Below, piece after piece: positions 2,154 to 26,117 of a stretch of 64,000 nucleotides of DNA. Every line of letters begins with the position of its first letter. The first letter of the stretch is position 1. The notes under the pieces were generated by a model. It was not told the origin of the DNA. It searched no databases and saw nothing but the letters and a program-made list of their open reading frames with translations. Source of the DNA: Nonomuraea basaltis (GTDB taxonomy: Bacteria > Actinomycetota > Actinomycetes > Streptosporangiales > Streptosporangiaceae); assembly GCF_005893125.1 (NCBI RefSeq), contig NZ_VCJS01000011.1, forward strand, positions 1 through 64,000, read 5' to 3'. The position numbers and the translations under genes were made by a program.

Positions 2154-2612
2154 CTTAACTCCCGTGATCAGCTACATGCATGATGGCAGCCGTCACCGAC
2201 AGGGGCAGCATTGCTCGCAGCACCTCGAAGACATGGGCGTGAGTGACAATGGGCACGGCCGGAGGGAGCGGGAGCCACGTTCTCCGGTGATCCAGGGTGA
2301 GGAACGAACCCTGGATCGTCGATCGCCCCCCAGCACGTACGGCGTCCAGCCATGCCGTGGCGATCGTAGGGCTGCATTTGTGCGGCGGTGCGGCAACCCC
2401 GGTCGGGGCGTTCGGTTGGTACGGCGGGGCCGGCGTGCGGTGCCCGGCCCGGTGTCCCGCCGCCGTCCGGGACCGGACCGGCCCCCAGGCCGCACGCCCG
2501 GACGGCGGGCGGGCGGAGGGCCGGGGGTACGGCGGCGCGCCGCGCCGCGGCTTGATCTCCTATAAGAACAATTCGGCAATGCTCAGCATGGTCTGGTGGT
2601 AGAACGCTCGGT
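2154..2612. other. Intergenic region with hairpin, no gene recognised
   Basis: No convincing gene. It contains a perfect inverted repeat, GATCCAGGGT at 2289-2298 and ACCCTGGATC at 2308-2317, with a 9-nt loop and no T-run, then a very GC-rich stretch at 2390-2550. Just upstream of the regulator gene is a possible promoter with TATAAG around 2560-2566. Confidence 0.4.
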
Positions 2613-3455
2613 GTGGCGGAGCGACGGGATCGGCTGAGGGCGCTGGGCGAGTTGCTGCGGCGGCTGCGCAAGGGTGCGGGTCTGACCGGTAAGGATCTCG
2701 CGCAACGGGCACAGGTGGCGCAACCTACGATCTCTCGGATCGAGACAGGTCAGCTCCTACCCACGCCGGAGACCGTTGAGCGGCTGGTCTCTGCACTGGG
2801 TCTCAATGAGGCGGGTCGGGCCGAGTTGGACGCTCTTCTCGTGCGGCTCCGGGATGAGGTGTCTCGGCTAAAGGGTGGCCTTGCCGGCCGAGAAGCGGCC
2901 AACGCAGCTCGGGGCCGGGCGGGGCGACGGGTGGTGTCGTTCCAGTCGGCAATGGTGCCGGCCCTCTTGCAGACCGCCGAGTACGCCCGGCTGGCGCTTG
3001 CGGTTGGTCGTGATGTCGACGAGGGTGACGCGGCCAAGGCTGCGGCGGTGCGTGTGGAGGCGCAAACGGTCTTGTTCGACTCGGCGCGAGAGTTCTCGTT
3101 CCTGTTGACCGAGGGCGCGGTGCGCACCTGGCCAGGCCCACCCTCGTTGATGTTGGCTCAGCTCGATCGGCTGGCCATGGTGGCCACACTGTCGCACGTG
3201 ACCCTCGGTGTCGTGCCCTGGTCTGTTCGGGTGCCGGCGTTCCCTCTGCACGGATTCACGATCTACGACGGTTCGGTAAGCGTGGTCGAAACCTTGACGG
3301 GTGACCTCAGCTTCAGCGAGGCCGATGAGATGGCCACGCACATGGAGACCTTCGAGGCATTCGCGGCTGTGGCGGTGTACGGCGCTGCGCTGCGCCGACT
3401 GCTCGGGTCGGTGGCCGACGACTATCGAGAGCTGACGAGCCGTCCAGAAAAGTGA
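2613..3455 (+). CDS. Helix-turn-helix regulator with DUF5753 (Scr1 family)
   Basis: A 280-aa DNA-binding protein. Residues about 5-65 form an XRE helix-turn-helix (LRRLRKGAGLTGKDLAQRAQVAQPTISRIETG). The rest matches the DUF5753 ligand-sensing-like domain (SAMVPALLQTAEYARLAL, then LLTEGAVRTWPG, LGVVPWS, FTIYDGSVSVVETLTG). Such proteins usually pair with small DUF397 proteins. Here the neighbours are instead an ATP-binding protein and a 90-aa protein on the same strand. The start is a GTG chosen because the HTH begins right after it. Family-level function is transcription control in an uncharacterised signalling circuit. Confidence 0.85.
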   Translation: MAERRDRLRALGELLRRLRKGAGLTGKDLAQRAQVAQPTISRIETGQLLPTPETVERLVSALGLNEAGRAELDALLVRLRDEVSRLKGGLAGREAANAARGRAGRRVVSFQSAMVPALLQTAEYARLALAVGRDVDEGDAAKAAAVRVEAQTVLFDSAREFSFLLTEGAVRTWPGPPSLMLAQLDRLAMVATLSHVTLGVVPWSVRVPAFPLHGFTIYDGSVSVVETLTGDLSFSEADEMATHMETFEAFAAVAVYGAALRRLLGSVADDYRELTSRPEK

Positions 3456-3549
3456 CGCATTTATGCGTCGAATAGCTTGAGCTTCTTCTAGTGTCGCTCA
3501 TACGCTGGCGCCATCCGATGTATAGCCCCCTAGACGACGGAGCTTGCCC

Positions 3550-3957
3550 ATGTCGGCCTGGCGCTTCTCCCGCTACTTCCTCGGCTCCGCCCCGTCCATC
3601 ACTGAGGCGCGACGCTTCGTAGTCGCACTTCTGCGAGGCTGGCCCGTAGTCGATGAGGCCGAACTCATCGTCAGCGAGCTGGCCACCAACGCGATACGTC
3701 ACTCCGCCAGCGGGCGTTTCGGAGGACGGTTCCTAGTGAGCGTCCAAGCTCATCCGGATCGCCTCTGGCTTGGCGTACTCGATGAGGGCGGCCAGTCCTC
3801 ACCCAAGGTTTTCCGACCGTGCCCGGAGGGCGAAGGTGGGCGCGGCCTGCTGCTCGTCGCCAGCCTGGCGGTCGACTGGGGTGTGTGGGGTGACGAACAC
3901 GGCCGAACGGTGTGGGCCGTGCTGAAGGCGGGATCGCAGGCGGCGTCGTGCGTATGA
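3550..3957 (+). CDS. GHKL ATP-binding protein (anti-sigma-factor-like kinase)
   Basis: A 135-aa HATPase_c_2 protein of the RsbW/SpoIIAB type. It shows the N box (ELIVSELATNAIRHSA), a G1-like LGVLDEGG and a G2 loop EGEGGRGLLLVASLAVDWGV. In actinomycetes these small GHKL proteins often lack a cognate sigma factor and accompany DUF5753 or DUF397 genes. The ATG at 3550 follows an in-frame TTG at 3544; I prefer the ATG. The stop overlaps the next start as ATGA, so translation is probably coupled. CCCTAGAC at 3528-3535 just upstream resembles one half of the palindrome at 4330-4345. Confidence 0.85.
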   Translation: MSAWRFSRYFLGSAPSITEARRFVVALLRGWPVVDEAELIVSELATNAIRHSASGRFGGRFLVSVQAHPDRLWLGVLDEGGQSSPKVFRPCPEGEGGRGLLLVASLAVDWGVWGDEHGRTVWAVLKAGSQAASCV

Positions 3958-4226
3958 CCCGCTGTCTGTCGCCTCATGTTCCTCCGCCGCAGCCATCGTG
4001 CGTGAAGCTCGACTGGTACCCCGCTCGTACGGGCGAACGGCCTCGGACGGTCGCCTGGACGTGCGACTGTCCGGACGTCTATTACGAACTGTGCGAGTCT
4101 GGCGGCTTGGGCTTCATTCGGCGCGTCGCGAAGGAGCGACGGCGGATCGTCGTCGAGACTCATCGGGTACGGGTCGGCGAAGCTCAGGCCTTGTGGGTTG
4201 CGCTACTTTCGGGCATGGCTCGATGA
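3954..4226 (+). CDS. Small hypothetical protein coupled to GHKL protein
   Basis: 90 aa, ATG overlapping the preceding stop (ATGA at 3954-3957). It contains WYPARTGERPRTVAWTCDCP with a CDC cluster, YYELCESGGLGFIRR, and a C-terminal REAQALW-like helix with basic residues before it. Proteins of this size and Cys/aromatic pattern commonly follow HATPase_c_2 genes in Streptosporangiales; no function is established. The tight coupling suggests it acts with the ATP-binding protein. Confidence 0.65.
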   Translation: MTRCLSPHVPPPQPSCVKLDWYPARTGERPRTVAWTCDCPDVYYELCESGGLGFIRRVAKERRRIVVETHRVRVGEAQALWVALLSGMAR

Positions 4227-4329
4227 GCCCGCGGGGTGTCCCCAATCGGCGGTCGGCGATTCGTGCAGTTAGTTCAAAAAGCGGCGAACCGGTCGAAATT
4301 GTACTGTCAAGGGGGATAGACGGCATACT

Positions 4330-4345
4330 GTCTAGGGGCCTAGAC
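4330..4345. promoter_or_regulatory. Palindrome upstream of the HTH/PP2C pair
   Basis: GTCTAGG and CCTAGAC flank a GG spacer, a perfect 7-bp inverted repeat, 27 bp before the ATG at 4373. A related half (CCCTAGAC, 3528-3535) lies before the GHKL gene, so one regulator could control both units. Operator function is inference. Confidence 0.4.
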
Positions 4346-4372
4346 TCGCCCTCAGCGATCAGAGGGGGATCC

Positions 4373-5212
4373 ATGCCGCCGGGTGACGTCGAGCGCATTG
4401 CCGCGATAGAAGACCCGTTCCAACTGCTACGGGTCGCTACGGAGCGTCTCAACGCTGCTCAGCAGGAGGTCGCCGAGCTCTCACGGCTACGGAGAAGGGT
4501 GATCCAAGAACTGCATGCCCAAGGGCTCTCGTACGCACAGATCGCTAAGGAAGCCGGCCTCACCAGGGGGCGGATTCACCAGATCCGGCACACCGGTCCG
4601 GCCCCCGAAGGGGCCTTCCTCGGCACGGGCACGATCATCCTGGTTACGCCGCTCAAGCGCGAGGCCACCAACGCCCGGCCTGTTGTCGCGATGGAGGATG
4701 TCACTGCGGCCAAGCGACTGGAGGACCTTGCCCGCGGCTTCGACCTGCCAGTGGAGTTGCAGCACGTCCCGCTTGGCGGAGAGATCGACATCAACCGGCC
4801 GAACCTTATCGTGATCTGCGGTCCCAGACTCTCGACCGTCATGGGCGCGCTGTACGAGTCGGATCCTGTTCTGGAGTGGGTCAAGGACGACGTCTGGACG
4901 TTGCGTGACAGCCGTACCGGCACGGTCTACCGCTCCGGTTCGGACAGCGAACCGGCTCGGGCCGTGGATTACGCCTACCTCGGTCGGCTCGGGCGTCCGG
5001 ACGGCAAGGGCAACCTCCTGGTGTTCACCGGCATCCATCCTCAAGGCACGCTCGGCGTGGTGCAGCTCCTCCAAACCGAGGTCGCGACGCTGTGGGGACA
5101 GGTAGGCGACAAGCGCTTCTCCACCGTCGTGGGCGTTGAATACGACCCAGCCACTGGGGAACCGGTGAAGGCGGAGCTTGCCAGTCCGCTGTACCGGCAT
5201 GAGGAGGACTGA
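4373..5212 (+). CDS. Sigma-like HTH protein with C-terminal sensor-like domain
   Basis: A 279-aa protein. Residues about 20-75 hold a coiled segment followed by a sigma region 4-like helix-turn-helix (LSYAQIAKEAGLTRGRIHQIR). From about residue 80 there is an alpha/beta domain beginning GTGTIILVTPLKREA, with PNLIVICGPRLSTVMGAL, a WTLRDSRTGTVYRSGSD segment, DYAYLGRLGRPDGKGNLLVFTGIHPQGTLGVV and a VGDKRFSTVVGVEY C-terminus. The Rossmann-like ICGPRLS pattern suggests small-molecule or nucleotide sensing, but I cannot name the fold. It is separated by only 3 bp from the PP2C-like gene, so the two are almost certainly one unit. Confidence 0.7.
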   Translation: MPPGDVERIAAIEDPFQLLRVATERLNAAQQEVAELSRLRRRVIQELHAQGLSYAQIAKEAGLTRGRIHQIRHTGPAPEGAFLGTGTIILVTPLKREATNARPVVAMEDVTAAKRLEDLARGFDLPVELQHVPLGGEIDINRPNLIVICGPRLSTVMGALYESDPVLEWVKDDVWTLRDSRTGTVYRSGSDSEPARAVDYAYLGRLGRPDGKGNLLVFTGIHPQGTLGVVQLLQTEVATLWGQVGDKRFSTVVGVEYDPATGEPVKAELASPLYRHEED

Positions 5213-5215
5213 GGC

Positions 5216-6034
5216 GTGCGGGTCACCTTCGCCACGGAAGCGGCACCCGGTTGGCCGAATGAGGACTTCGTTGCTGCGGCTCCTGATGCGGTCGTCCTCC
5301 TCGACGGCGCCGGCACTCCGCCAGGCTCGGACTCCGGGTGCTCGCACGGCGTGGCCTGGTACTCCCGCACTCTCGGCTCCACCCTCTTGACCGCCATGTC
5401 GCAGAGCGCCGGCACCTTGGCCGAATTGCTGTCCGTGGGGATCAAGTCGGTCTCGTCGCTCCATGACGGGACCTGCGATCTGGCTCACCCCGGGTCACCC
5501 TCGGCCACAGTGATCATGCTGCGCCGTGTCAACGACACCCTGGAGTGGCTGGTCTTGGCAGACTCCGTGCTCCTCTTGGACGTCGTCGAGGCGGCAGAGC
5601 CCGTGGTCGTCTGCGACGATCGCGAGGCCCAGGTTGGGGCGCTCCATCGCGCCGAAATGGACGCTCTCGACTCTGGCAGCGTCGAACATGTCTCGGCTCA
5701 CCGGCGCTATGTCGAGACCCTGCGGTCGTACCGGAACCGGGACGGCGGCTTCTGGGTGGCTGCCACTGATCCTCTCGCGGCCGACCAGGCATTGACCGGC
5801 AGCATGCCCGCCGATCAGATCCGAGCCGCTGCGCTCCTCAGCGATGGCGCGTCTCGCCTGGTCGACCGCTTCCACCTGGGCACCTGGCGCCACGTCCTCG
5901 ACACCCTCGATGAGTCCGGCCCGGACGATGTCCTCCGTCAGGTCCGCGCAGCCGAGCAGTCTGACCCGCAGGGCACGCGCTGGCCACGGGGCAAGGCCTT
6001 CGACGACGCCACCGCGCTCTACTTCCGGCTCTGA
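5216..6034 (+). CDS. PP2C-like protein phosphatase domain protein
   Basis: A 272-aa protein with the PP2C/SpoIIE-like plan: NEDFVAAAPDAVVLLDGAGTP supplies the early N-E-D and D-G-A-G metal-site motif, PSATVIMLRR a central strand, ALLSDGASRLVDRF the second acidic motif, and KAFDDATALYFRL the terminal DDAT. These match metal-binding positions of PPM phosphatases. The GTG start follows the upstream stop by 3 bp. Together with the HTH protein this looks like a two-gene signalling unit, with phosphatase and DNA-binding sensor. The substrate is unknown. Confidence 0.75.
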   Translation: MRVTFATEAAPGWPNEDFVAAAPDAVVLLDGAGTPPGSDSGCSHGVAWYSRTLGSTLLTAMSQSAGTLAELLSVGIKSVSSLHDGTCDLAHPGSPSATVIMLRRVNDTLEWLVLADSVLLLDVVEAAEPVVVCDDREAQVGALHRAEMDALDSGSVEHVSAHRRYVETLRSYRNRDGGFWVAATDPLAADQALTGSMPADQIRAAALLSDGASRLVDRFHLGTWRHVLDTLDESGPDDVLRQVRAAEQSDPQGTRWPRGKAFDDATALYFRL

Positions 6035-6386
6035 GGCTTACTCCACCCACCACCAGCCATTTCCCAGGTCGCCGGAAGGCTTGATCTTCGCCGGACCAGA
6101 CAACGGAGCGCTACGCAACACCAACTTCCACCGCCGCGTCTGGGCCAAGGCGCTCCAGGACGCGGGCGTGCCGAAGATCCATTTCCACGATCTCCGACAC
6201 ACCGGGAACACCCTGGCCGCCAGCACGGGCGCATCCACGCGGGAACTGATGACCCGCATGGGCCACTCCAGCACTCGGGCCGCGCTCATCTACCAGCACT
6301 CCACCGACGAGCGTCAGCGCGAGGTCGCACGCAGGCTTGACGCCCTCGCACGCGGCGCGCTCACCAAGAAGCCATCGGGCACGTAA
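6035..6386 (+). pseudogene. Tyrosine recombinase, C-terminal remnant (integrase B)
   Basis: About 115 codons open from just after the PP2C-like stop to the TAA at 6384-6386. It has EGLIFAGPDNGALRNTNFHRRVW, then the catalytic box HDLRHTGNTLAAS, GHSSTRAALIYQH with the active-site tyrosine, and a basic tail. Box II Arg/His, GH and Tyr are intact, but the core-binding domain and the first catalytic Arg are absent. The protein differs clearly from the integrase remnants at 12 kb and 25 kb (those have HDLKH). It ends 71 bp before an att copy, the normal place for an integrase gene. Confidence 0.85.
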
Positions 6387-6451: not shown

Positions 6452-6457
6452 TATGAG

Positions 6458-6499
6458 TGGAGCCTAGGAGATTCGAACTCCTGACTTCCTGCTTGCAAA
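6458..6499 (-). repeat. att core copy 1 (tRNA-Ala 3' end)
   Basis: 42 nt identical to the 3' end of the tRNA-Ala(TGC) gene at 26045-26086: acceptor 3' strand, T arm, variable region and anticodon arm through the anticodon. After 6499 identity stops. Interpreted as an attachment-site scar. Confidence 0.9.
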
Positions 6500-8827: not shown

Positions 8828-8879
8828 GCTTCGAATTCGAAGCGTGCTATGGTCACGATGTGCTTCGAAAACGAAGCAC
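8828..8879. promoter_or_regulatory. Pair of palindromic operators
   Basis: GCTTCGAATTCGAAGC (8828-8843) and GTGCTTCGAAAACGAAGCAC (8860-8879) are perfect palindromes with centres 34 bp apart, ahead of the ATG at 8908. Both share the CTTCG-N4-CGAAG core found at the MarR promoter (6862-6875). Confidence 0.75.
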
Positions 8880-8907
8880 ATCACGATGGAAGAGACGAGG
8901 GCTTGTG

Positions 8908-9852
8908 ATGAAGGCAGTGCGTTTCCACGAGTACGGCGACCCGAGCGTCCTGCGTTACGAGGACGTCGAGCAGCCCGTCCCCGGCGCCGGGCAGGTGTTG
9001 ATCCGGGTCGCCGCGACGTCGTTCAATGGGGTCGACGGCAACATCCGCGCCGGTTTCATGCAGGGTCCGATCCCGGTGACGCTGCCGCACACGCCGGGCA
9101 TCGACGTGTCCGGCACGATCGCGGCGCTGGGCGAGGGCGTGACCGGCATCCAGTTCGGTGACCAGGTCGTAGGGTTCCTGCCGATGGTGACCGATGGCGC
9201 GGCCGCGGAGTACGTCGTCGCTCCGGCCGAGATTCTCGCTCCGGCGCCGACCAGCATCTCCTTGGCCGACGCCGCCGCGCTACCCATCGTGGGTCTCACC
9301 GCGTGGCAGGCGCTGTTCGACCATGCGAAGCTGGCGGCCGGCCAGCGCGTGCTGATCAACGGCGCGGGCGGCGCCGTCGGGGGCCACGCCGTTCAGCTGG
9401 CCAAGAACGCCGGCGCGTACGTGATCGCCACGGCCAGCCCCCGCAGCATCGAGCAGGTCAAGGCCACGGGTGCCGATGAGGTCATCGACCACACCACCAC
9501 CGAGGTGGCCGCGGTGGTGAGCGAGCCGGTTGACGTCGTGCTCAACCTCGCCCCGATCAACCCGGCGCAGTTGGCCGCGCTGCTCACCCTGATCCGTCCC
9601 GGCGGAGTGCTGGTGAACACCACGGTGTGGATGCCCGCCCCCAGCGACGAGCAGCGCGGCGTACGCGGTATCGACCTGTTCGTCCGCAGCGACGCCACCC
9701 AGCTGTCCCACCTGGTCGCGCTAATCGACTCCGGCGAGCTGCACGTCGACGTCGCCCAGCAGGTCCCCCTCCCGGAGCTGCCGGCCGTGCACGCCCAGGC
9801 CGCCGCGGGTGCACTGCCCGGGAAGACCGTCATCGTCGCCCCCACCGCCTGA
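8908..9852 (+). CDS. NADP-dependent quinone oxidoreductase-like protein
   Basis: 314 aa, zinc-less medium-chain dehydrogenase/reductase. N-terminal MKAVRFHEYGDPSVLRYEDV and GQVLIRVAATSFNGVDGNIRAG are typical of the QOR group. The Rossmann motif is INGAGGAVGGHAVQLAKNAGAYVIATAS, and PLPELPAVHAQAAAGALPGKTVI ends the protein. Expected reaction: NADPH-dependent reduction of quinones or enones in the cytosol. It is preceded by two operators like that of the MarR gene, so induction by quinone-like compounds or other electrophiles through MarR is plausible. The ATG at 8908 fits the family N-terminus better than the upstream in-frame start at 8860. Confidence 0.88.
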   Translation: MKAVRFHEYGDPSVLRYEDVEQPVPGAGQVLIRVAATSFNGVDGNIRAGFMQGPIPVTLPHTPGIDVSGTIAALGEGVTGIQFGDQVVGFLPMVTDGAAAEYVVAPAEILAPAPTSISLADAAALPIVGLTAWQALFDHAKLAAGQRVLINGAGGAVGGHAVQLAKNAGAYVIATASPRSIEQVKATGADEVIDHTTTEVAAVVSEPVDVVLNLAPINPAQLAALLTLIRPGGVLVNTTVWMPAPSDEQRGVRGIDLFVRSDATQLSHLVALIDSGELHVDVAQQVPLPELPAVHAQAAAGALPGKTVIVAPTA

Positions 9853-9915
9853 CGCCGCCCAATGAGGCCGACCCGGGCCACCTTCGAAGCACAACCCATG
9901 ACAGGAGAAACCTCG

Positions 9916-10857
9916 ATGTCTCACGACAATGTGATCACGGTGCTCGGCGCGACCGGCACGCAAGGCGGCGCGGTCGCGCGGGCGCTGCTGACCGACGGCG
10001 AATTCACGGTACGGGCGGTGACGCGCAACGCCGCGTCGCCCAAGGCGCAGACTCTGGCCGGGCTCGGCGCCCACGTGGTGGAGGCGACCCTCACCGACGA
10101 GGGCAGCCTTCGCCGGGCATTCGACGGGGCATACGGCGCGTTCCTGGTTACGCCGTACTGGGAGCACCGTTCGCCCACCCGGGAACTGGCCGAGGTGGAG
10201 AACCTCATCAGCGCGGCCCAGGCCGCCGCCCTGCGGCACGTCGTGTGGTCGACGCTCGAGGACACCCGCGAGGCGATCGCGCCCGACGACACCCGGATGC
10301 CGTTCATCGGCGACGGCTACCGGGTGCCGCACTTCGACTTGAAGGGAGGGGCCGCCGACGCCCTGTTCGCCAAGTCCGGCCTGCCCACGACGTACATGCT
10401 GATGTCCTTCTACTGGGACAACCTGCTCGGCCTGGCCAAGCCACAACGCGACCCGGACGGGACGCTGGCCTTCCATCTCCCGCTCGGCGACACGGCCATC
10501 GCGGGCGTCGCCTCCGACGACATCGGCCGGCTGGCGCTGCGCGTGCTGCGCCAGCCGTCGCAGACGATCGGCGCCACGGTTCCCGTGGTCGGCGAGTACC
10601 TGACCGGCGAGCAGATGGCGGCGGCGCTCAGCACGGTCCTCGGTGAGCCGGTGGCCTACCGCCCACCCACCCACGACCAGTTCCGCAGCGTCGGCTTCCC
10701 CGGCGCGGACGAGCTGGGAAACATGTTCCAGTACTACACCGAGTTTCCCGGGTCCTATCTCGGCCGCCGCGACCTCGACATCGCACGCGCGTTCAACCCC
10801 GATCCGCTCACCCTGACCGACTTCCTGGCCGCGCATCGTGCCGAACTCGCGGCCTGA
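9916..10857 (+). CDS. NmrA family NAD(P)-binding protein
   Basis: 313 aa. Begins with a GxxGxxG Rossmann motif (VITVLGATGTQGGAVARALL), then AVTRNAASPKAQTLAG, and the NmrA-like segments GAFLVTPYWEH, RHVVWSTLEDTRE and a C-terminal FNPDPLTLTDFLAAHRAEL. NmrA-like proteins are atypical SDRs acting as redox sensors or NAD(P)H-dependent reductases. ATG at 9916 has AGGAGA 9 bp upstream. It follows the QOR gene on the same strand with 63 bp between, so one MarR-controlled unit is likely. Confidence 0.85.
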   Translation: MSHDNVITVLGATGTQGGAVARALLTDGEFTVRAVTRNAASPKAQTLAGLGAHVVEATLTDEGSLRRAFDGAYGAFLVTPYWEHRSPTRELAEVENLISAAQAAALRHVVWSTLEDTREAIAPDDTRMPFIGDGYRVPHFDLKGGAADALFAKSGLPTTYMLMSFYWDNLLGLAKPQRDPDGTLAFHLPLGDTAIAGVASDDIGRLALRVLRQPSQTIGATVPVVGEYLTGEQMAAALSTVLGEPVAYRPPTHDQFRSVGFPGADELGNMFQYYTEFPGSYLGRRDLDIARAFNPDPLTLTDFLAAHRAELAA

Positions 10858-10887
10858 CCGACTTCCTGGCGACTCGGAGGAGCCCCG

Positions 10888-11080
10888 ATGACCAGCACCG
10901 ACCTCACCCCGTCCGCCCGCCCGGAACCGCCAACTATGCGCAGGCGGGCGCCTCCTTCCAGCTCGCGGCGCCGGTCGACCCGGCCGGGGCGTTCACCGCC
11001 CGCTCGATCGACGACGTCGTCCGCGCCGTCGCCACCGCGCGGTCCGCGCGACCCCGGCAGCCTCATCCTCGTCGTGACGA
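10888..11080 (+). pseudogene. FAD-linked oxidase N-terminal remnant
   Basis: After an ATG at 10888 the frame changes, and a second frame reads PGTANYAQAGASFQL, then PVDPAGAFTARSIDDVVRAVATARS, the start of a BBE-type FAD-binding oxidoreductase (the PG..Y motif followed by the first FAD-domain helix). The sequence then leaves the family. Only about 50 codons survive, so this is a truncated remnant. Confidence 0.5.
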
Positions 11081-11138
11081 GCGCAGCGCATACGGCACAA
11101 ATGATTAATCACGCATCGCGACACCAAAGGATATCGAC

Positions 11139-11651
11139 ATGAGGACGCCAATACTTATCAGCTCAACGGACGACACCGTCTCGATCACGGTCCAACAGCG
11201 AAGCTCAGTGGCCCCCAGCAAAGCTTTCCGAATGATCGTCCCAATCGACCTCACGTCCGTCTTCCACCGGGTGGCACCATTCCCCGGTGTCAAGAGCGTG
11301 GCGAACCAGACCGAAGAATGGGATCACGTCGGTCCGACCAGGAACCCTCAGTTCGACGACGGATCGCAAGTCGACGAACAGTTGACCGAATACACCGAAG
11401 GTTCAAGTTTCGCATATCAACTGACGGGGTTCACTAATGTCCTTTCCCGCCTCGCCGCCGGCGTCAGAGGTGAATGGAACTTCAATCCCGACGGCGATGG
11501 CACGCTCCTCCGATGGACTTACGAGTTCAAGCCGCTTCCGGGACGTCGCTGGATTCTCGCCGGCCCGTTCGCGCCCCTGTGGCGCCGATACATGGTCGCC
11601 GCCCTTGCGCGCTGCGTGCGAGCGGTCGAAGCGGCACAAGGCAACTCGTAG
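11139..11651 (+). CDS. SRPBCC family protein
   Basis: 170 aa with a START/Bet v1-like (SRPBCC) pattern: N-terminal strand and helix (SVAPSKAFRMIVPIDLTSVFHRVAPFPGV), a middle WDHVGPTRNPQFDDGSQVDEQLTEY, a core FAYQLTGFTNVLSRLAAGVRGEWNF, and a terminal helix GPFAPLWRRYMVAALARCVRAV. Likely binds a hydrophobic ligand; the role is unknown. It starts at the ATG at 11139. Its GC content is lower than its neighbours, which fits transfer. Confidence 0.7.
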   Translation: MRTPILISSTDDTVSITVQQRSSVAPSKAFRMIVPIDLTSVFHRVAPFPGVKSVANQTEEWDHVGPTRNPQFDDGSQVDEQLTEYTEGSSFAYQLTGFTNVLSRLAAGVRGEWNFNPDGDGTLLRWTYEFKPLPGRRWILAGPFAPLWRRYMVAALARCVRAVEAAQGNS

Positions 11652-11684
11652 GCGACCCCAGGATCCCGCTTCGCCGACCGGCGA

Positions 11685-11952
11685 ATGCCGGTTCCCGAAG
11701 TCCTCAGCGTCACCGCCGCCGCATCCGTGCTCGCCGCGGTGGCCAGCCCCCCCGCCGCATCAGGGACCGCGGGAGCAGCAAACCTGCTGCTGGTGGTCTG
11801 GGTGCCGCTCTACCTGCGCACAAGTGCACCCATCAACCGCCTGCTCACCGCGGCCGCCGACACCCACGAAACTCCCGCCGACGCCCGCACCTGGCAACGG
11901 GACTGGGACTGGGACTGGGACTGGGACCGCATCATCGTCCCCAGAGCCGTCC
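11685..11952 (+). pseudogene. DUF1772-like membrane protein, truncated at both ends
   Basis: From the ATG at 11685 the frame reads two hydrophobic segments (SVTAAASVLAAVASPPAA; ANLLLVVWVPLYLR), then PINRLLTAAAD, a stretch of RDWDWDWDWDR and IIVPRAVL, resembling the second half of DUF1772/anthrone-oxygenase-like proteins (normally one RxWDR). At 11953 it breaks abruptly into sequence copied from the integrase locus at 25474. The N-terminal part also appears missing. Confidence 0.55.
11899..11927 (+). repeat. Hexanucleotide tandem repeat (GACTGG)x4
   Basis: Four copies of GACTGG followed by GAC, in frame, turning an RxWDR motif into RDWDWDWDWDR. It ends 26 bp before the recombination junction at 11953. 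Confidence 0.85.
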
Positions 11953-12498
11953 TGGGGTCGCAGCAACTTCGCCAACCGGCTGTTCCGTCCGGCGACGGAC
12001 GGGCAGCTGGTGGCGAAGGGGCCACGAGTCCGACACAGGATCATGCTGGACGTTGACGGCCGTCAGGCGGTGCGCCGCGGTAGGCAGACGATACAGGCAC
12101 TGGAGGACCGGGCGGCGGAGGCGTGGCTACCGGTCGTCGAGGGCCTGACGCCCCATGACCTGAAGCACTCGCACAAGGTGTGGATGGACGAGGACCTGAT
12201 CCCGGACGTGGCGCAGGCGAAGCGACTTGCCCACTCCATCGCGTCGATCAAGGGCAGGGCCACGCACATCTCGGACCGCTACTCGCACGTGTCGGAGCCG
12301 ATGCGCCAGCAGCTCGTGGCGGTGCTGCAAAAGCGGTGGGAGGGCTCGCTGCGTCGGAGGGCCAAAACCGGCCCTTCGAGGCTTCCGATATTGCAGGAGC
12401 TTCTGCGGCCGTACCTGCGCCCGTGGGTGGTGTCCTCCCAAATTCCTCCCATCGGCGGCGCGGAGATCATAGAAATGAGAAATGACCAGGCCGTTTAG
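11953..12498 (+). pseudogene. Tyrosine recombinase, C-terminal remnant (integrase A, copy 1)
   Basis: About 180 codons ending at the TAG at 12496-12498. It reads WGRSNFANRLFRPATDGQL, LTPHDLKHSHKVWMDEDLIPD, then a RYSHVSEPMRQQL segment carrying the nucleophilic Tyr, and a tail of about 60 residues. The usual box II Arg is Lys here (HDLKH) and the GH motif appears as LAH. Everything upstream of about residue 150 of the catalytic domain is lost, replaced by the DUF1772 remnant. The paralogue at 25039-26019 keeps more of the protein. Confidence 0.85.
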
Positions 12499-12814: not shown

Positions 12815-13135
12815 GTGAGCACTCCTGAGCCTGACCGCTCCCATGAGATATCTCAACGCGACCTGCGTAACCGGTCAGCGGAGATCATGGATGGCCTGGA
12901 ACGTGGAGAGCGGTACGCCGTTACCCGTAATGGCCATCACATCGGTGATCTGGTCCCTCTCCGCCGCCGACGCCGGGCGGTTTCGCGTGCCGAGTTCGCC
13001 GCCGTGTCGCGTGGCATGCCCCGGCTGGACGACCGTAAATACCGCGAGGACATGGACCGCCACGTCAACGATGATCTCTACGATCCTTACGATCGTGCAT
13101 ACGGCAGACGCGAATTCGCTGAGGACGAGGGATGA
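12815..13135 (+). CDS. Phd/YefM-type antitoxin
   Basis: 106 aa, GTG start. The N-terminus SHEISQRDLRNRSAEIMDGLERGERYAVTRNGHHIGDLVPL is a clear Phd/YefM DNA-binding domain (the S-x-R-ExR...G....VT..G.P.A.L pattern). The acidic C-terminus (DDRKYREDMDRHVNDDLYDPYD) would cover the toxin. The stop overlaps the toxin start (ATGA at 13132-13135). It lies between att copies 2 and 3, alone with its toxin. Confidence 0.88.
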   Translation: MSTPEPDRSHEISQRDLRNRSAEIMDGLERGERYAVTRNGHHIGDLVPLRRRRRAVSRAEFAAVSRGMPRLDDRKYREDMDRHVNDDLYDPYDRAYGRREFAEDEG

Positions 13136-13542
13136 CCCACGCCCTAGGGCTGCTCGACACCAACATCCTCATCCTGCGCGCCGGCATCGATCCCGACGAG
13201 CTCCCCGATGAGATGATGATCAGTGCCATCACCACCGCGGAGCTCTCGGTCGGCGTCTTGGTGGCGACAGGGCCGCAGGAACTCGCTCAGCGAATGAAGA
13301 TCCTGCAGACCGCCGAAGCCGAATTCGATCCACTTCCCTTCGACGACACTGCAGCCCGCGAGTACGGCCAGTTGTGGACGGCCGTCATCGCCTCAGGGCG
13401 CAAACCACGCCCCCGCGCTGCAGATCTGATGATTGCCTGTGTGGCAATCGCGAACCGGCTCCCTCTGTACACCTGCAATCCCAAGGATTTCAAAGGTCTG
13501 GACCACCTGATTACGGTAGTTCCGGTCACTCGCCCCCAGTGA
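13132..13542 (+). CDS. VapC-type PIN domain toxin
   Basis: 136 aa PIN-domain ribonuclease. It shows the early acidic motif LLDTNILI (Asp9), TTAELSVG (Glu), RAADLMIACVAIANRLPLYTCNPKDF (Asp plus the terminal N-x-x-DF), all expected for a Mg-dependent nuclease active site. VapC toxins cut tRNA or rRNA and are inhibited by the upstream antitoxin. Translation is coupled through the 4-bp overlap. The pair probably stabilises its att-flanked segment. All key residues seem present, so it may be active. Confidence 0.88.
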   Translation: MTHALGLLDTNILILRAGIDPDELPDEMMISAITTAELSVGVLVATGPQELAQRMKILQTAEAEFDPLPFDDTAAREYGQLWTAVIASGRKPRPRAADLMIACVAIANRLPLYTCNPKDFKGLDHLITVVPVTRPQ

Positions 13543-13580
13543 ATGCCGCAGAGGGGCCTTGTGGCAGCTGTGCAAGATCG

Positions 13581-13616: not shown

Positions 13617-13624
13617 GCTTGGAG

Positions 13625-13666
13625 TGGAGCCTAGGAGATTCGAACTCCTGACTTCCTGCTTGCAAA
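13625..13666 (-). repeat. att core copy 3 (tRNA-Ala 3' end)
   Basis: 42 nt identical to 26045-26086. No integrase remnant precedes this copy; the VapC toxin gene does. After 13666 the sequence differs from that after copies 1 and 2, and the motif of 6576/12651 is absent. Confidence 0.9.
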
Positions 13667-18020: not shown

Positions 18021-19240
18021 CGGCAGGGCGGCGACGTGCTCGCAGCCCGGTTCGCCGGCCGGCACCTGCCGGCGGTGGTAGACGATCCTCCGGCGGGCGC
18101 CAGGAGAAGAAGCGGGAACCCGCCGGGTTCGGCCGGGCACTGCTGCGATACCGGCGGGCGTCCGGCTCGTCGCAAGTCGACATCGCGGATGCGTCGAGGA
18201 GTGAGCGTCCGCCTCCCGTACTGCGGCCGCAGACAGGCCTGCACCAAGGGGTATCCGGCCGCTCATCGCCCGCCGCGGCGTCGACCACGGCTCCGGATTC
18301 GGCGTGCACCGATGGGTCGTCGAGCAGCCCCTGGCTCTGCTGCACTGGTTCCGCGCCTGCGGATCCGCCGGGAGATCCGCGACGACATTCACAAAGCCTT
18401 CCTCAGCCTCGCCTGCTCGATCATCTGCTGGCGACGCCTCCAACACCTTTTGCCGCGCGATCGACGGGCGGTCGCGGTTCCACGATTCGAGGTCCACGCC
18501 TCGCTCACGTTCTCGGCCAGTTCGCGCGTGTATCGCCGCAGAGTCGTACTGCAAGACCTGCTGGAAGTCGATGACCGCCCTGGCGGTGTTCCTTTCCTAC
18601 GGGGCAAGTGCGGTAAGGCTCGACCGGGCGGCCGGAGTGGAACTCATCTGAGGACTCCGTCAGACACGGGCAATGTGCGAGACGCTCGATCGCTTGTGTT
18701 CGAGGTCGCGGGAGCATCGGCGAGGCCGTGCGCAGAAGCCCTGGGCAGGAACACCGCTTCGCCGGCAGTCGGAGGAACAGCGTCGCCGACCGGCGGCATC
18801 AGCCAGCATCGACCTTGCCGCACGACGAGGAACCCCGCGACGGCGACAAGGGAATCCGGAAAACCGGTCGTCGGCGAAGTTCTTGGCGGTACGGGCCTGC
18901 GGCTGAGCGTGCGCGCAGACGCAGTGGCAGCCGGTCGGCACCTGCCGCATCGATAATGATCCGCAGACGGTGGTAAGGCCGGAGCTTGCGGTGAACAGCG
19001 TGGAGAACTTCATAGTCGCCAACGCATCTGTTGTGTCCACGATCAGGGCTGCCCAGACTTGGGCGCGGTCCATAGTCGTTGACCATGTGAGTGAACAACA
19101 CCCTTGTGGTTCCGGGGCGGTTACAGGGCGCTGCGCATGATCAGCAGCTGGTCGGCGAACGACGAACGGGCCGATGCGGCGGCCTGTCGCAGGTCGATAT
19201 CGCCCCGCGATGCTGCTGTTGCCGGCGAACTCGGATGGGC
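18021..19240 (+). pseudogene. Degenerate region with IS5-family transposase remnant (18300-18440)
   Basis: No intact gene in about 1.2 kb. Around 18300-18440 the plus strand reads HRWVVEQPLALLHWFR and, after a one-base shift, RLRIRREIRDDIHKAFLSLA then CSIICWRR, the C-terminal end of IS5-type transposases (RWVVERT..WL..FRRL...DIH.AFL.LA..IICWRR). The rest has stop codons in all likely frames and no recognisable motif. This is probably the scar that rearranged the ABC locus. Confidence 0.55.
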
Positions 19241-26019: not shown

Positions 26020-26086
26020 CCTGGTCATCGCCATTCTGATCTTGTGGAGCCTAGGAGATTCGAACTCCTGACTTCCTGCTTGCAAA
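25474..26086 (+). repeat. Long direct repeat, copy 2
   Basis: Gapless partner of 11953-12565. It runs from inside the integrase through the hairpin to the anticodon of tRNA-Ala. Confidence 0.9.
26003..26028 (+). terminator. Hairpin overlapping integrase A stop (copy 2)
   Basis: ATGACCAGGC / GCCTGGTCAT with 6-nt loop, identical to the hairpin at 12482-12507. Confidence 0.6.
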
Positions 26087-26117
26087 GCAGGCGCTCTGCC
26101 AACTGAGCTAAGGCCCC
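26045..26117 (-). tRNA. tRNA-Ala (anticodon TGC)
   Basis: 73 nt on the minus strand. The acceptor stem is GGGGCCT/AGGCTCC with the G3:U70 pair that identifies alanine tRNAs, a D arm with AGCTCAGTTGGCAGAGC, anticodon loop TTTGCAA (TGC), T arm with GTTCGAATC, and a terminal A; CCA is not encoded. This is the intact end of the tandem att array: bases 26045-26086 equal the three att copies. The element side is to the left. Confidence 0.97.

Follow-up and report, generated by a model that had tools for sequence, protein, structure and literature searches.

A regulatory module of five genes, with an HTH-sensor protein and a PP2C-like phosphatase, in a family of actinomycete integrative and conjugative elements

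Related systems and the locus of Nonomuraea basaltis

Among the described systems closest to the one presented here is KorSA of pSAM2, a repressor of the GntR-HutC family that binds its own promoter and, via the pra promoter, controls repSA-xis-int, while no site was found upstream of traSA and its ligand was not identified, as far as the relevant sections of PMC8584621 report. The regulators of the actinomycete integrative and conjugative elements (AICEs) of Frankia are given in the corresponding part of Ghinet et al. 2011 (PMC3218068) as Pra, GntR/KorSA, XRE and one WhiB-like protein, and XRE-DUF397 pairs are covered in sections of PMC10364602. Here, we analyse five genes, labelled A to E, that lie between positions 2613 and 6034 of a stretch of 64,000 nucleotides (positions 1 to 64,000 of contig NZ_VCJS01000011.1, hereafter the window) from Nonomuraea basaltis, and that are the regulatory end of an AICE family. 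The genome comprises 14.3 Mb in 670 contigs, and the window starts at base 1 of its contig. The five genes, with their Pfam matches, are as follows.

Gene A, 2613..3455, + strand: XRE HTH regulator of the Scr1/WhiJ type (HTH_31 + DUF5753, 103 bits)
Gene B, 3550..3957, + strand: GHKL ATP-binding protein of the RsbW/SpoIIAB type (HATPase_c_2, 45 bits)
Gene C, 3954..4226, + strand: protein of 90 amino acids (aa) without Pfam match
Gene D, 4373..5212, + strand: HTH-sensor protein, Sigma70_r4-type HTH (26.4 bits) and then about 200 aa without Pfam match
Gene E, 5216..6034, + strand: PP2C-like phosphatase (PP2C_2, 27.9 bits for a cut-off of 24)

In its proposed role, D would resemble KorSA as an element-encoded repressor acting on its own promoter, but it has a sigma-region-4-type HTH, another sensor domain and a coupling to PP2C; both A and D belong to HTH families other than GntR and carry no UTRA domain, and neither is thus a KorSA-type (GntR/HutC) protein. 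Moreover, candidate D boxes are found directly at the transfer-replication-integration operon, unlike what those sections of PMC8584621 describe for KorSA at traSA. With the AICEs treated in that part of PMC3218068, the family has in common RepSA, FtsK-type transfer, Xis, a tyrosine integrase, attachment (att) sites in tRNA genes and an XRE protein, whereas the word phosphatase is absent from the main text of that paper and a PP2C is part of the module here. The same word is absent from the main texts of PMC9513070 and PMC11706625, and the relevant part of PMC4170104 deals with another plasmid palindrome system, SpdA2/sps, of a sequence different from the boxes of this element. Gene A shares the HTH + DUF5753 architecture and the size of the Scr1/WhiJ proteins covered in sections of PMC10364602, but the genes that follow it encode a GHKL protein and a Cys-rich protein of 90 aa rather than DUF397, and it lies on a conjugative element. 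No description of a PP2C-coupled regulator in such elements, nor of this gene set, was found in the open-access literature searched, in agreement with a preliminary description of the locus, in which no known system with this set could be named. Finally, a GHKL ATP-binding protein and a nearby PP2C are also common to the RsbW/SpoIIAB partner-switching systems, whereas here the phosphatase is paired with an HTH protein, and neither a STAS match nor a full sigma factor was detected among A to E, the six core genes of the complete copy L030 and the further element genes scanned (no search for an antagonist was made in the rest of the genome).

The module as one end of an integrated element

All five frames are intact in the window copy and lie on one strand, as they had been drawn in the preliminary description, with B and C overlapping by 4 bp and D and E separated by 3 bp. 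A scan of the genome contigs with D identified 23 loci, 22 of them with a full-length D, and in all of these 22 relatives A, B, D and E showed the same order and strand, A being in every case the first gene of the module. Gene C was present in 20 of them and was not found in L044 and L046; thus, the five genes travel together, in keeping with their earlier treatment as one unit. The remaining locus, L051, is broken and rearranged. The genera named for these loci are Nonomuraea, Microtetraspora, Streptosporangium, Planomonospora, Microbispora, Sphaerisporangium, and Thermoactinospora. The distribution is patchy: within the genus of the window genome, 36 genomes yielded 9 (the window genome among them) with a D of at least 65% identity. 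At the level of the family, 95 of 200 genomes showed some match to D, and at that of the class 71 of 394, many of these matches covering the HTH only. More distant loci (L084, L085, L094 and L132, for example) presented diverged A and B genes together with D-E, C not being detected, and a third group of loci has D alone or D and E only.

In the complete copies (L030, L049 and L050), E is followed by p136 (encoding 136 aa), a gene of 87 aa (p87) and genes for an FtsK-type protein, RepSA, Xis and a tyrosine integrase. The Pfam matches of L030 to FtsK_SpoIIIE, RepSA (351 bits), HTH_17 (Xis) and Phage_integrase cover all four AICE core genes. A tRNA gene is often found beyond the integrase, for Ala, Ser, Gly, His or Ile depending on the host, and a second copy of the tRNA end was detected on the far side in 10 of the 15 loci tested (it was not found in L041, L042, L045, L050 and L054). 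For the following counts, we used a set of 26 elements, that is, 25 loci plus the window copy, with 388,353 bases in all. The gap between D and E ranges from -1 to 18 bp across them, and 17 of the 26 showed Tra and Rep matches to L030 after E; 14 of these 17 had an L030-type Int match and 8 an Xis match, counts lowered by the differences between integrases and by the early end of some loci. The att direct repeats and the Int, Xis, RepSA and FtsK genes of the relatives bear out the earlier suggestion of a mobile segment, and the signalling island of that description becomes one end of an integrated conjugative element, the rest of which is deleted here, rather than a free-standing unit.

The nearest complete copy, L136 (genome G505), with a D protein 96% identical, includes an exact att repeat of 43 bp (3529-3571 and 18871-18913) in tRNA-Ala. 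The window copy matches L136 up to base 6072, with a deletion junction at about 6072-6075, beyond which two features of the element follow.

Integrase C-terminal fragment, 6075..6386, + strand: 83% match to L030 integrase residues 289-398
Attachment site, 3' part of tRNA-Ala(TGC), 6457..6499, - strand: 43/43 identical to both L136 att copies and to the intact tRNA-Ala at 26044

As the match ends at 6072 and is followed by the integrase tail and att, the window copy has lost its genes for transfer, replication and excision, about 5.4 kb by the length in L030, so the module is stranded and the C-terminus of the integrase is all that the window copy keeps of the AICE core set. Its left att was not found within the window, which begins where the contig does. 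No Tra or Rep match was found in the available sequence of 9 of the 26 elements, namely L032, L034, L036, L038, L039, L046, L047, L054 and the window copy, with sequence covering only about 6 kb after E in L034 and L036; some of the nine are closely related, and the loss events are therefore fewer than nine. In all nine, the D and E frames are open. Compared with L136, the dN/dS values of A to E range from 0.08 to 0.13, which is constraint since the split between the window copy and L136, without dating it relative to the gene loss.

Palindromic boxes at three promoters

The preliminary description had pointed to a CCTAGAC element common to two promoters, and this is found at 3529-3535, before B, and at 4339-4345, before D, in both cases within a 16-bp palindrome, GTCTAG-N4-CTAGAC, of which it forms the right arm. 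The 26 elements contain 21 exact copies of this box, 39 with one mismatch and 69 with two, far above chance, for which five first-order resamples gave 0.0, 0.4 and 8.6. These boxes occupy six fixed places, one at B, two at D and three (P1, P2 and P3) at p136, in front of the transfer operon. Those of the window copy, together with a palindrome of a different sequence, are the following, none of them assigned to a strand.

Box B, 3520..3535, GTATAGCCCCCTAGAC: about -30 from B; at most two mismatches in 25/26 elements, three in L032
Box D1, 4306..4321, GTCAAGGGGGATAGAC: about -67 from D; at most two mismatches in 23/26 elements
Box D2, 4330..4345, GTCTAGGGGCCTAGAC: -42 to -46 from D; at most two mismatches in 26/26 elements
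Palindrome, 3454..3469, GACGCATTTATGCGTC: immediately 5' to the likely -35 of the B promoter

The outliers of box D1 are L029 and L043, with three mismatches, and L050, with five. Boxes P1, P2 and P3, located at about -120, -75 and -32 from p136, each showed at most two mismatches in 17/17 elements with a near full-length p136; L036 and L038, in which p136 is partial, were excluded from these counts, and the first two of the three boxes are present in them. Regarding specificity, the pattern GTMTAGN4CTAGAC, which covers the B and D2 forms, has its only exact matches in the 14.3-Mb genome at boxes B and D2, with one-mismatch sites also on four other contigs, and in seven relative genomes (8-11.5 Mb) all 15 distinct exact sites (15/15) were located inside the element.

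Placed by eye, as were all -35 and -10 positions relative to the boxes, box B is downstream of a likely -10 (TACGCT, 3501-3506), the right arm of D1 overlaps a likely -35 (TAGACG, 4317-4322), and that of D2 overlaps a likely -10 (TAGACT, 4341-4346) separated from TAGACG by an 18-bp spacer. At the transfer operon, P1 overlaps the -35 (TAGACA, with TATCGT as -10), and P2 and P3 are in the leader. Over the -35 or the -10, in the leader or after the -10, these are positions where repressors sit. The palindrome GACGCATTTATGCGTC, at about -95 of B, showed at most four mismatches in 24/26 elements and none or one in 16/26, and its place in L041 and L055 has changed arms (CTTAT/ATAAG) that keep the symmetry, also by eye; by elimination, it may be the site of A.

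Two loci allowed us to look at the boxes next to D in a reduced context. In L135, whose D is 60% identical, a stretch of 19 kb yielded no A, B or C; the D-E and p136-Tra-Rep-Xis-Int groups diverge from each other, and boxes GTATAGGGGACTACAC, GTCCACCCCCCTATAC and GTCCATCCCCCTAGAC are located between them. In L134, D-E is likewise divergent from p136-Tra-Rep-Int, without detectable A, B or C. In addition, we analysed a set of 23 loci with distant D genes, in which L061 was set aside as a copy of the second D locus of the window genome (see below). Repeated 16-mers upstream of these genes amounted to 35, compared with 16.2 in shuffled sequences (standard deviation 3.2, maximum 23 of 20 shuffles) and with 22 inside the genes themselves. 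The persistence of boxes beside D in L134 and L135 without A to C, together with the repeated motifs upstream of distant D genes, makes D the likely binder.

The proteins D and E and a putative transfer switch

The matches of D to sigma factors are confined to region 4 (residues 28-74), and no region 2 match was found with Pfam, so that D lacks the combination of both regions that a sigma-70 factor requires. Accordingly, of the sigma-like HTH-sensor adjoining a PP2C gene in the preliminary description, the 3-bp gap and the PP2C_2 match stand, while the likeness to sigma factors is reduced to the region-4-type HTH. RefSeq names 17/24 plasmid relatives of D "sigma-70 factor", a label that, as far as the window D shows, goes back to this HTH alone. 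The AlphaFold2 model of D (pLDDT 88) predicts an alpha/beta sensor domain at residues ~77-266, for which Foldseek returned no match at an E-value of 0.001 or below. With VIA-align, the domain was paired with the N-terminal domain of a GH67 glucuronidase (1mqq; Z 11.3, 127 residues, 2.4 A), BcsB (Z 10.9), an S-layer anchoring domain (Z 8.1) and parts of GH84/GH20 enzymes, and these fold matches of the predicted structure appear to be a shared alpha/beta arrangement from which we draw no function. The polar residues invariant in 17 sequences (N141, R142, D164, D179, R187, D199, Y202, R208 and D210) suggest a candidate ligand pocket. No match to D was found in the phage collection.

Regarding E, its metal-ligand acids (D17, D30-G31, D210-G211 and D263-D264) are invariant in 15 aligned relatives, as metal binding by a PP2C-like protein demands, and E is a plausible PP2C enzyme by its residues, although a search of PDB sequences with its profile gave nothing at an E-value of 0.01 or below. 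By coordinates, E lies directly downstream of D in 22/24 D-bearing plasmid records, and it is present at 17/23 distant D loci. No A or B was detected at these 23 loci even at an E-value of 0.1 (at least 1.5 kb per side, where the sequence allowed), a C-like stretch was found at one of them, L012, on the opposite strand, and tblastn of five plasmid D loci detected none of A, B and C; two plasmid records contain C, and both are without D. As E follows D on plasmids and D-E occurs without detectable A to C in L134 and L135, E looks like the partner of D. Furthermore, a PP2C relative in Streptomyces uncialis (L027 4235-5563) has at its C-terminus a UTRA domain (50.6 bits), a domain that serves KorSA-type regulators for ligand binding, and this gives a second hint that the phosphatase belongs to transfer control. 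Public annotation names 9/32 plasmid PP2C relatives of E "integrase", apparently wrongly. As for B, the residues of its N, G1 and G2 boxes are invariant in 10 sequences and its ATP-site motifs are intact, which makes it a plausible enzyme too.

Other observations touch the D-E pair. The genome of the window has a second, diverged D-E pair (L056, G000:C564:108000-127000), 41% and 42% identical, preceded by upstream repeats of another kind (CGCTAAG-type), so two switches of different specificity may coexist in one genome. Relatives of D with 43% identity and no E found nearby (L028 from Nocardia farcinica, L098, L100 and L101) indicate that the phosphatase is not an obligate companion of D. In L031 (1479-2103), the sequence upstream of the intact module contains fragments of a second PP2C gene of this family (64-79% identity). 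The "ATP-binding protein" that follows the PP2C gene in L027 was considered as a GHKL partner and discarded, since it is a P-loop protein (AAA_33) and not GHKL.

As the shared promoter element is an operator that is also found on the transfer operon, the reading of the locus shifts from a signalling island to a conjugative-element switch. We consider it probable, at roughly 0.7, that D is an autoregulated master repressor that holds the transfer genes off via the boxes, with E as its dedicated phosphatase and A-B-C as a second layer. Gene order, element anatomy, the positions and specificity of the candidate operators and the intact catalytic motifs are read directly from the sequences; on this ground D would be the binder and the repressor, and every phosphorylation step below is conditional in the same way. 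D would bind the 16-bp 6-4-6 palindromes via its HTH, two at its own promoter and one at the B-C promoter and, in complete elements, three more at the promoter of p136-p87-FtsK/Tra-RepSA-Xis-Int. During quiescence, D would fill the boxes and limit the transfer operon as well as B-C and the operon of D itself. Being made together with D, E would most likely set the phosphorylation state of D and thereby the threshold of release, the opposing activity coming perhaps from a host kinase or from B. A shift in the phosphorylation balance, or a ligand of D, would then free the operon and lead to excision, replication and transfer. The probable site of action of A is the palindrome that precedes the B promoter, and the B-C pair of a GHKL and a small protein may feed into the switch, perhaps as its kinase side. 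In the window, with the output operon lost, self-regulation and repression of an incoming relative, the latter as a form of immunity, are the only roles that the remaining module could have.

Several results weigh against this proposal. The hexamers of the promoters were assigned by eye. E was not found beside D at 6/23 distant loci, nor directly downstream of it in two plasmid records (NZ_LN868939.1 and NZ_CP109431.1), so E is not essential to D everywhere, and no cognate kinase of D is known, B not being detected at the 23 distant loci searched. The 4-bp pattern missed the boxes of L134, whose spacer is, by eye, 5 bp long. A plain palindrome count over the promoters of the 23 distant D genes was weak, with 31 compared with 20.6 in shuffles (standard deviation 4.4, maximum 33 of 200), and a scan of spacers gave 52 against 39.4 for 6 bp, as high as the 50 against 39.6 for 4 bp, which makes the box less certain in remote relatives than in the near family. 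The comparison by repeated 16-mers gave the stronger result of the two.

XRE proteins commonly bind short palindromes and A is present in all 22 full-length near relatives, so that A, and not D, might bind the GTCTAG-N4-CTAGAC boxes as the repressor, with D-E as a separate signalling pair. XRE regulators are also reported for AICEs in the part of PMC3218068 cited above. We hold this to be unlikely, because the boxes of L135 persist between D and the transfer operon although no A was detected in its 19 kb, repeated motifs also precede D at D-E loci that lack A, and A has a candidate palindrome of its own upstream of B. Slightly less likely still is the RsbW-type partner switch of the preliminary description, in which B as kinase and E as phosphatase would both target one antagonist and so release a DNA-binding output. 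A DNA-binding protein is indeed among the five, the residues of the ATP site of B and of the metal site of E are intact, and both genes co-occur in 22/22 near relatives; however, the proteins scanned include no STAS protein or full sigma factor, B overlaps C and not E, and E tracks D on plasmids, in L134 and L135 and in the 17 distant loci without detectable B, so the proposal is not supported in this form.

The region-4-type HTH, the sigma-70 name of 17/24 plasmid relatives and the coincidence of box arms with likely -35 and -10 positions would also suit a D that acted as an element-specific, sigma-like activator, the boxes being its promoters. This we regard as improbable, given the lack of a region 2 match, the two-fold symmetry of the boxes and the location of box B, P2 and P3 downstream of the likely -10 (by eye), which are places for a repressor. 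Plain decay, with a module that is functionless in this genome, is a possible though not the favoured explanation, and it is compatible with the master-repressor proposal for complete elements. The loss of transfer, replication and most of the integrase, and the 9/26 elements without Tra/Rep matches, are in its favour, whereas the five intact frames and boxes and the dN/dS values speak against it, the latter being blind to selection before versus after the loss.

To our knowledge, the release trigger of AICEs is mostly unknown. The element family offers a testable switch in this respect: six candidate operators are mapped, the candidate repressor comes with a phosphatase of its own, and control-only remnants exist in nature. 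It also touches on the public names of D relatives (sigma-70 factor) and E relatives (integrase). More tentatively, D may be a sensor-repressor tuned by its own PP2C that reads Ser/Thr phosphorylation of the host (or of B) to time exit, while stranded copies would confer operator-specific immunity; a sensor-repressor with a co-encoded PP2C could then be a conjugative-element switch not described before. Should phosphorylation of D control release, Ser/Thr signalling and conjugation would be linked in mycelial actinobacteria, and mutual exclusion between elements might be predictable from their operator half-sites.

Gene C, flanking sequences and neighbouring insertions

The 90-aa protein that the preliminary description had coupled to the GHKL protein is C, whose gene overlaps B. 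C has invariant residues C4, H8, C37 and C39, and its predicted structure consists of four strands and a C-terminal helix (mean pLDDT 90.9), with no significant match in the PDB. The absence of the usual DUF397 partner of a DUF5753 regulator was also upheld, as no DUF397 protein was found beside A and neither B nor C has a DUF397 match in Pfam, DUF397 being present at 14 other places of the genome. That C is a divergent DUF397 was considered and is not claimed, since a profile of the C family gave a probability of 1.6% against 11 genomic DUF397 sequences. The predicted strand order and C-terminal helix of C resemble the fold expected of DUF397, and no solved DUF397 chain was found in the PDB for comparison; a remote relation of fold may exist. 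In Nonomuraea gerenzanensis (NZ_LT559118.1), six places in one record code for C-like Cys-rich small proteins, so C belongs to a larger unnamed family. PADLOC matched only the HTH part of A and nothing in B to E, which indicates no defence system.

Directly upstream of A, the following feature was observed.

Non-coding G+C-rich block, 2275..2584, unstranded: includes a hairpin with 10-bp arms at 2289-2317

Part or all of the stretch 2160-2612 was matched in 23/25 other elements (not in L044 and L048), several matches spanning only the end next to A, and in some elements the block is split from A by other DNA (L030 1264-1556, L052 2670-2793). It may be a candidate origin or transfer-recognition region. 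A DUF6461 gene (1554-2153, - strand) adjoins the element, and relatives of it are found near other copies (L034, L041 and L055).

Downstream of the element, further copies of the tRNA-Ala 3' end occur from 12523 onwards and at 13622-13666, followed by the intact tRNA-Ala at 26044-26117. The four copies between 6457 and 26117 suggest that elements inserted one after another at a single tRNA. Counterparts of the genes at 8860-12498 of the window were seen, by eye, beyond the far side of the element at a tRNA of the same kind in G505, the genome of L136. Finally, two att copies enclose a lone VapBC-like toxin-antitoxin pair (12816-13543, also recognised by eye), which makes up a minimal insert.

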